From contig JANRLT010000036.1 of the NCBI GenBank assembly GCA_033762255.1, positions 1 to 64,000 of the forward strand: DNA of 64,000 nt, in the 5' to 3' direction. The position numbers and the translations under genes are program-made. How positions within the stretch are numbered: the stretch's first letter is position 1; each line of letters begins with the position of its first letter. This DNA comes from Pirellulales bacterium (GTDB lineage Bacteria > Planctomycetota > Planctomycetia > Pirellulales > JALHPA01). Positions 57,902 through 58,717 of this stretch are shown here, in pieces. A model generated the notes under the pieces. The model had not been told where the DNA came from. It worked only from the letters and a program-made list of their open reading frames with translations, and did no database searches.

Positions 57902-57923
57902 GGGATGGACCTATTGTAAAAAA

Positions 57924-58373
57924 TTATTTCCAAAGATAGCGTTCATCGTAAGCAATGTTGTTCTTTACAAGCAGTGCCAGTAGTTCTTCTTGAAAAGATT
58001 TTTTGCGATGGTGTTCCGCTTGCTTGCGGATGTAGTTGCGGATGATAGGAATCTGCGATTCGCTGACAGTAAATGCGGAGTATCCTTCCTGCCACGCGAA
58101 CTTACGTAATTTGAATTTTTCCTCGTTTAACCAACGCGAGGAGTTAGCCTTAATCCGATTTAACATTTGTGCCAAGGCCATGATGGGTTTGATGCGCAAG
58201 AGGATATGCACGTGGTCCGCTATTCCTCCAATTTCCAAGAAATTTCCTCCTTCGCTTTTAACGATACCTCCAATGTAGGCATACAGTTCGCCTTGAATTT
58301 CGCTTTTGATCAATGGGATTCGATTTTTTGTGCTAAAGACCAAGTGGTAAATTAAATTGGTGTATGTTGACAT
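57924..58373 (-). CDS. RAYT/IS200-like Y1 transposase (HUH)
   Basis: A 149-residue protein. It starts MSTYTNLIYHLVFSTKNR, the classic IS200/RAYT opening. The HUH pair is in IADHVHILLRI, the catalytic Tyr in IPIIRNYIRKQAEHH, and it ends YDERYLW. It lacks the OrfB partner of IS605. Directly upstream (58411-58598) is a cluster of REP-like palindromes, the usual neighbour of REP-associated tyrosine transposases. These are often domesticated housekeeping genes, so mobility is not implied. ATG 58373 matches the family; the longer frame to 58451 runs through the repeats and is rejected. Confidence 0.9.
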   Translation of the reverse strand: MSTYTNLIYHLVFSTKNRIPLIKSEIQGELYAYIGGIVKSEGGNFLEIGGIADHVHILLRIKPIMALAQMLNRIKANSSRWLNEEKFKLRKFAWQEGYSAFTVSESQIPIIRNYIRKQAEHHRKKSFQEELLALLVKNNIAYDERYLWK

Positions 58374-58410
58374 GAAAATACCTAAAAACCGCAAGGAATA
58401 GCAGCTAATA

Positions 58411-58598
58411 GCTCCGTAGGAGCGTGGTGCTGTAGCCAGGTGCGCAAGCACCTGGTATCGCGAGGTAATTCATCATGCAGCCCCGCTAGGGGCGATGTCA
58501 AGTTTGTTTGACGACGCCCCTGCGGGGCTATTAGATATCTTGTAAAAAGTTAACCGGTAGCTTGCGCTACCGGCTACAGCACATAGCTCCTACGGAGC
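58411..58598. repeat. Nested REP-like palindrome cluster (BIME-like)
   Basis: About 190 bases form a nested set of inverted repeats. The outer arms are GCTCCGTAGGAGCG... (58411-58437) and ...GCTCCTACGGAGC (58572-58598), near-identical complements over 27 bases. Inside lie CCAGGTGC-GCAA-GCACCTGG (58436-58455) and CCGGTAGC-TTGC-GCTACCGG (58554-58573), then GCCCC-GCTA-GGGGC (58480-58493) and GCCCC-TGC-GGGGC (58516-58528). Around 58494-58515 is an inverted TCAAG/TTGA core. Each small hairpin is REP-like, and the whole could fold as one cruciform. It lies 38 bases upstream of the RAYT ATG. Confidence 0.9.
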
Positions 58599-58717
58599 AG
58601 TTTTATCGTTTGCGTAATAGGAACTTATGCGCGTAAGACCTACCCGTGCATAACTGATACGCAAACAAATTACGACTTGATAATCCGTAAAAGTAAATTT
58701 TGATGAACGATTTCCCG

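Follow-up and report, generated by a model that had tools for sequence, protein, structure and literature searches.

The 190-base palindrome at 58410–58599 of the window, by which we mean the whole stretch of 64,000 nucleotides analyzed here, is probably a REPIN/BIME-like, non-autonomous mobile unit of the TnpAY1 subclass 1.2 transposase encoded next to it. The array is an ordinary copy of an unusual family: the transposase gene is not a canonical RAYT, yet the system is built and spread like a RAYT system. REPs count among the frequent repeats in bacteria, and their mode of spread is unsettled. A second class of transposases that has a multi-hairpin REP of its own would provide an independent system for the analysis of binding, cleavage site and strand choice. 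It would also show TnpAY1 subclass 1.2 in a new light and explain a widespread repeat of the Planctomycetota and their neighbours.

Two inverted three-hairpin modules form the palindrome

The initial annotation had described six hairpins in mirror arrangement that form one long palindrome of about 190 bases, and rechecking the coordinates on the sequence confirmed both the position and the mirror order. As single-stranded DNA the region 58390–58615 folds with −70.7 kcal/mol in comparison to −33.4 kcal/mol (sd 3.2) for shuffled sequences (z −11.5), the opposite strand reaches a z of −10.2, and none of 200 shuffles folded as well on either strand. Based on matches of the covariance model R1 to both halves, 58410–58499 on the plus strand (70.8 bits) and 58510–58599 on the minus strand (72.6 bits), which both belong to the 30 training sequences of this model, the unit (without a strand of its own) consists of two three-hairpin modules lying tail to tail (A-B-C C'-B'-A'). 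The formula of the unit is A-N8-GTAG-B-spacer-C, followed by C'-B'-CTAC-N8-A'. On the plus strand, the outer accessory hairpin A (GCTCC-GTA-GGAGC, 58411–58423), whose position is conserved in 127 modules, is followed by the GTAG tag (58432–58435), located directly 5' of hairpin B. Hairpin B is the REP proper with an 8-bp stem and a GCAA loop (58436–58455), and the inner accessory hairpin C (GCCCC-GCTA-GGGGC) is located at 58480–58493. The mirror module on the minus strand contains C' (58516–58528), B' (58554–58573), the GTAG tag (58574–58577, CTAC on the plus strand) and A' (58586–58598).

A repeat search detected 46-nt inverted arms (58411–58456 and 58553–58598) with 80% complementarity, and the mirror arms are not identical. 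Hairpin B reads CCAGGTGC-GCAA-GCACCTGG and its mirror copy B' on the minus strand CCGGTAGC-GCAA-GCTACCGG; the two differ at three stem positions, each of which is compensated inside its own hairpin. Because of this internal compensation, conservation applies to the individual hairpins and not to the palindrome as a whole, and a function of the long palindrome as such was set aside. Judged from the sequence, the single hairpins look selected and the long palindrome would be a consequence of two homologous modules lying inverted.

Two minor features of the region may be added. A 13-nt direct repeat with one mismatch (TTGTAAAAARTTA) is present at the end of the transposase gene (57914–57926) and in the B'-C' spacer (58540–58552), perhaps by chance. 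Furthermore, a promoter-like TTGACA-18-CATGAT sequence at the centre of the array (58472–58501, minus strand) points at the transposase, with one such sequence found and 0.5 expected.

The neighbouring gene encodes a Y1 transposase with subclass 1.2 motifs

The array is located directly upstream of the transposase gene (57924–58373 including the stop codon, minus strand), within the gap between dnaK and clpB, and the start of clpB follows 22 nt past the transposase stop. The gene has an intact reading frame and encodes a Y1 (HUH) transposase of 149 amino acids, which matches PF01797 (E 8.1e-29) and contains the motifs DHVH, WQ and YIRKQAEHH, the latter being of the Y---Q--HH type. By motifs only, the protein is assigned to TnpAY1 subclass 1.2, for which Table 1 of Quentin et al. 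(2018; PMC6006769) gives DH[IV]H, WQ, Y---Q--HH and a length of about 148 amino acids. The gene had initially been called a RAYT, which is correct in so far as it is a Y1 transposase with a link to REPs, and like a class 2 RAYT it goes together with inverted GTAG-tagged hairpins dispersed in the genome. It is not a canonical class 2 RAYT: the Y---NP signature of this class (TnpAREP) is missing, the score with the NCBIfam RAYT model NF047646 is 23.4 bits at a cut-off of 80, and the only structures retrieved with a profile of 15 relatives are TnpA of the IS200/IS605 type (ISDra2/IS608-type). The NCBIfam IS200 model NF033573 is passed with 81.5 bits (cut-off 55), as expected for a Y1 HUH transposase of the IS200/IS605 group.

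The transposase gene lies outside the unit, as R1 finds only the two halves within the window and there is no second module downstream of the gene. This arrangement counts against the proposed mobile unit. At 27 other loci, dnaK and clpB are adjacent in 25 and the transposase gene is located between them in none. Since both genes are neighbours elsewhere without this gene in between, gene and unit are most simply explained as an addition in the lineage of the window.

Related transposase loci carry the same module in at least five phyla

For comparison, we used the best 80 of 568 confirmed transposase loci, which were found with a 15-sequence alignment. The subclass 1.2 motifs are present in nearly all of them (Y---Q--HH in 79, WQ in 80 and DH[VI]H in 69 of 80). 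An NTAG directly before a perfect hairpin was found within 350 bases of the transposase at 47 of the 80 loci, in 33 of them on both sides, and the orientation of these hairpins is mostly inward (99 inward, 15 outward). Hairpin A accompanies 103 and hairpin C 93 of the 113 NTAG hairpins with enough flanking sequence, both are present in 86, and single-base (not dinucleotide) shuffles lead to an expectation of 5.5 for A and 10.3 for C. Applying fixed criteria (spacing 6–10, B of 19–21 nt) to all loci examined yielded 127 modules, and within those limits the spacing from A to the tag peaks at 8 (109 modules) and the length of B at 20 nt (109 modules). Covariation in 30 modules was clear, with two-sided changes in 16 of 18 pairs and pairing in 97.2% of the cells, and the slid controls collapsed.

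R1, whose training set also includes modules of 12 of these 80 loci and of 10 of the 57 genomes considered below, matches 73 of the 80 loci at E≤0.01 (the E-values being rough) and 61 of the 68 loci that supplied no training modules. The matches cover at least five phyla, as assigned from the record titles: Planctomycetota (27/27), Verrucomicrobiota (16/18), Acidobacteriota (11/11), Bacteroidota with Ignavibacteria (10/15), Desulfobacterota-type (5/5) and others (4/4). The proposal of the initial annotation that the array is REP-like, has the symmetry of a BIME or REPIN and belongs with a Y1 transposase is supported, as relatives carry the same tagged hairpins at their flanks. In contrast, Table 1 of Quentin et al. 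(2018; PMC6006769) answers the question of REPs for subclass 1.2 with “no” and gives its range as Cyanobacteria and Bacteroidetes, whereas the loci with REP modules described here belong mostly to Planctomycetota, Verrucomicrobiota and Acidobacteriota.

Hairpins between dnaK and clpB might also act as transcription terminators or as mRNA-stabilizing structures, with the transposase adjacent by chance. Two of the window hairpins are followed by T runs in a terminator-like manner (2 found, 0.4 expected), and a role of REPs in general in transcription and mRNA has been proposed in the text of Di Nocera et al. (2013; PMC3733652). However, TTTT within 9 nt after B occurs in only 4 of the 127 modules and after C in none, so that termination was rejected as the main role. 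The module recurs at the transposase loci of many genomes, whereas R1 matched none of 27 other clpB regions used as controls at E≤0.1 (one weak match had an E of 0.13), and the tag, the fixed 8-nt spacing and the common triplet described below are left unexplained by termination. All in all, we consider this explanation unlikely, but a secondary, exapted role of the array as terminator or stabilizer is possible.

Tandem arrays of modules are located beside the transposase at L137, L170, L129 and L131, with periods of 68, 72, 95 and about 86–90 nt, respectively. A and C are the same type of short accessory hairpin, which adjacent modules at L137 and L170 have in common, and B is the GTAG-tagged, REP-like hairpin. 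The three different REP types that had been suggested for the array are thus reduced to a single tagged one. There was no support for regarding A as a target site that does not belong to the unit, as A and C differ in most copies of the type found at contig C25 and L129 repeats A, B and C together with its period of 95 nt.

Modules are dispersed as tail-to-tail pairs

Searching the own genome with the window array at E≤1 retrieved only the array itself and its own inverse, and a single outer hairpin showed no enrichment (55 and 46 matches versus 83 and 60 for the reversed-pattern control). A single-hairpin search alone would wrongly suggest that the array is unrelated, which was reversed by the loop-and-tag pattern and the covariance model. 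The pattern GTAGCC-N6-GCAA-N6-GG occurs 13 times without mismatch; judged by eye, all of these matches are palindromes or close to it, and their surroundings mostly align as a 13-nt hairpin, 8 or 9 nt, NTAG, B, about 24 nt and a second 13-nt hairpin. With R1 the module class is dispersed in the own genome (81 matches at E≤0.1). The initial annotation had suggested a genome-wide search for the hairpins and would have been abandoned if they occurred nowhere else in the genome and had no relation to a RAYT. The exact sequences are indeed unique, but modules of this class are dispersed and linked to the transposase family.

The paired form dominates among these copies. In the set of 46 own-genome matches scoring 40 bits or more, adjacent modules up to 1 kb apart are arranged tail to tail in nine cases (9/9 of the opposite-strand neighbours), head to head in none and on the same strand in three. 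The gaps between paired modules range from 10 nt in the window to 466 nt at C25, where the gene lies inside, and 730 nt, which looks like a gene-bearing form plus gene-less derivatives. At C25, a paralogue of the transposase with 52% identity has one inverted module on either side. The same arrangement was found at 20 loci of two congeneric genomes, in which 13 of 13 neighbouring modules lie tail to tail with a total length of 181–208 bp, compared with 190 bp for the window unit. Two inverted REPs are therefore dispersed as one unit, which is characteristic of a REPIN or BIME, and the window copy itself is not repeated in its genome. What had been regarded as a one-off mega-structure of more than usual complexity is the ordinary dispersed form of this family.

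The orthologous sites that could be compared between two congeneric species, G015 and G031, differ in part in their content. At L265/L277 the unit is present in G015 and missing in G031, at L258/L280 it is also missing in G031 together with further sequence (about 340 nt are gone, more than the unit), and at L262/L278 and L257/L269 both species carry it. Presence and absence at the two differing sites fit gain or loss alike and do not tell insertion from deletion.

Modules were detected in 34 and the transposase in 30 of 57 related genomes. Both are present in 28 genomes, the transposase only in 2, modules only in 6 and neither in 21 (Fisher p 2.5e-8); without the ten training genomes the numbers are 18, 2, 6 and 21 (p 4.6e-6). 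The six genomes with modules but no transposase match and the two with the transposase but no modules count against a mobile unit of this transposase. Four genomes (G020, G024, G028 and G052) contain 10–72 modules, which are lower bounds because the scoring of relatives used stricter filters and considered no more than 77 candidates per genome, and gave no transposase match at E 1e-10; these may be orphan families or cases of a diverged or missing gene.

The window copy shows no sign of recent amplification, because its sequence is single-copy and its halves are diverged. Both features would also be expected for a relic, i.e. an immobile, vertically kept old REPIN copy beside a domesticated transposase, which has the same origin as a mobile unit and differs only with regard to present activity; the finding that, among 28 loci, the gene is located between dnaK and clpB only in the window points in the same direction. 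On the other hand, compensatory changes have preserved the hairpins, and the reading frame of the gene is unbroken. We take the relic to be a serious possibility, but lean away from it towards a unit that may still be active.

The array could also represent the two ends of a classical insertion sequence of the IS200/IS605 type, now decayed, and the protein is indeed closest to the TnpA of this group, both in the score with NF033573 and in the structures found. The ends of IS200/IS605 elements carry their recognized hairpins on one strand, but the two ends of the present unit have the tag in inverted orientation, a feature of REPtrons. Moreover, the family is dispersed in the form of pairs that lack the gene, and the window gene lies outside the pair, so that we regard a decayed insertion sequence as very improbable.

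A candidate cleavage site and a possible mode of spread

Within an element, the bases at positions 4, 5 and 6 after A are identical to those after C at 42, 41 and 32 of 58 loci, compared with 16.5, 27.1 and 19.9 after permutation, which treats loci as independent (redundant rows, i.e. L064 and own-genome copies, had been dropped beforehand). Bases 1–3 showed no clear agreement at these loci. At 33 loci the tails of A and C also agree when a module of one side is compared with one of the other side, and in this comparison base 2 agrees too. In the window the four tails begin with GTGGT, TATGT, GATGT and GTCGT and have GT at positions 4–5 in common. Inspection by eye gave no sign of a link between the N of NTAG and the triplet.

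In IS200/IS605 elements the cleavage sites are chosen by guide tetranucleotides located 5' of the hairpin, and a possibly equivalent role has been described for GTAG (Corneloup et al., 2021; PMC8266576). Because of this guide function and the element-wise match of the triplets behind A and C, we propose the triplet 4–6 nt after both hairpins as candidate nick site, and the common triplet would be a direct prediction of the nick position. By analogy with the biochemistry of IS200/IS605 and TnpAREP, it is likely that the HUH transposase binds hairpin B in the single-stranded state, e.g. on the lagging strand, with GTAG as guide. Nicking would then take place at the element-specific sites behind hairpins A and C, followed by strand transfer. 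As the module is present in the same 5'-3' sense on both strands, either strand would be usable, and the unit could spread without the gene.

On a larger scale, subclass 1.2 could be a large, overlooked class of REPtrons in at least five phyla. Its REP would consist of a central hairpin with the guide tag and one short hairpin on either side of it, and at a fixed distance behind both short hairpins the same element-specific triplet would serve as cleavage and target site. Such REPs would spread as 190-bp tail-to-tail pairs from either strand by IS200-clade chemistry. We see the chances of this generalization as evenly balanced; if true, REP association is not confined to class 2 (Y---NP) RAYTs.

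Relation to known systems

The system resembles the REPtrons and REPINs (BIMEs) of TnpAREP (RAYT) from E. coli and Pseudomonas with respect to inverted pairs of GTAG-tagged hairpins, an adjoining Y1 HUH transposase and dispersal in the genome. In contrast to these, the transposase is of class 1 type (Y---Q--HH), each REP is a three-hairpin module with 8 nt between A and tag and an element-specific triplet common to the A and C tails, and the tag is NTAG and not only GTAG or GTGG. The protein family and a guide tetranucleotide 5' of the hairpin are in common with IS200/IS605 elements (ISDra2, IS608), whereas the ends are inverted here and not on the same strand, and gene-less pairs dominate.

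GTAG-tagged palindromic repeats, also as dimers, have been reported in R. baltica and O. terrae, and “a plethora” of R. baltica transposase genes was found to have such repeats at their flanks (Di Nocera et al., 2013; PMC3733652). The passages of that article covered here do not describe a three-hairpin module or a common triplet. A search of the open-access literature on RAYT/REPIN, REPtron, TnpAY1 and planctomycetes (at the level of titles and abstract openings) found neither a description of the three-hairpin module or of REPs of subclass 1.2 nor binding or cleavage data on this subclass.

Other Y1 genes of the own genome

The own genome has ten Y1 matches, nine of them outside the window. 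Three of these are IS200-like (L053, L054 and L059, which is broken), and the remaining six (L055–L058, L060 and L061) belong to other kinds and gave no R1 match below E 0.2. As four of these six have the Y---NP motif, two REPtron classes are present in one genome. Inverted hairpins flank most of the other Y1 genes (L055–L061) as well, but these are of a different sort and peculiar to those genes. A second abundant REP family, GTAGYGGCGA-N7-TCGCC (e.g. L061, C19:232–315), has 114 matches with at most one mismatch versus 4 for the reversed pattern and flanks the Y1 gene at C65 (L061). The Y1 gene at C35 lies between the arms of a perfect inverted repeat of 49 nt (L056:1535–1583 and 2189–2237), which suggests recent homogenization. 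Finally, L053 at C54 encodes a Y---Q--HH transposase accompanied by CCAG-tagged long hairpins without R1 match, possibly another module type.
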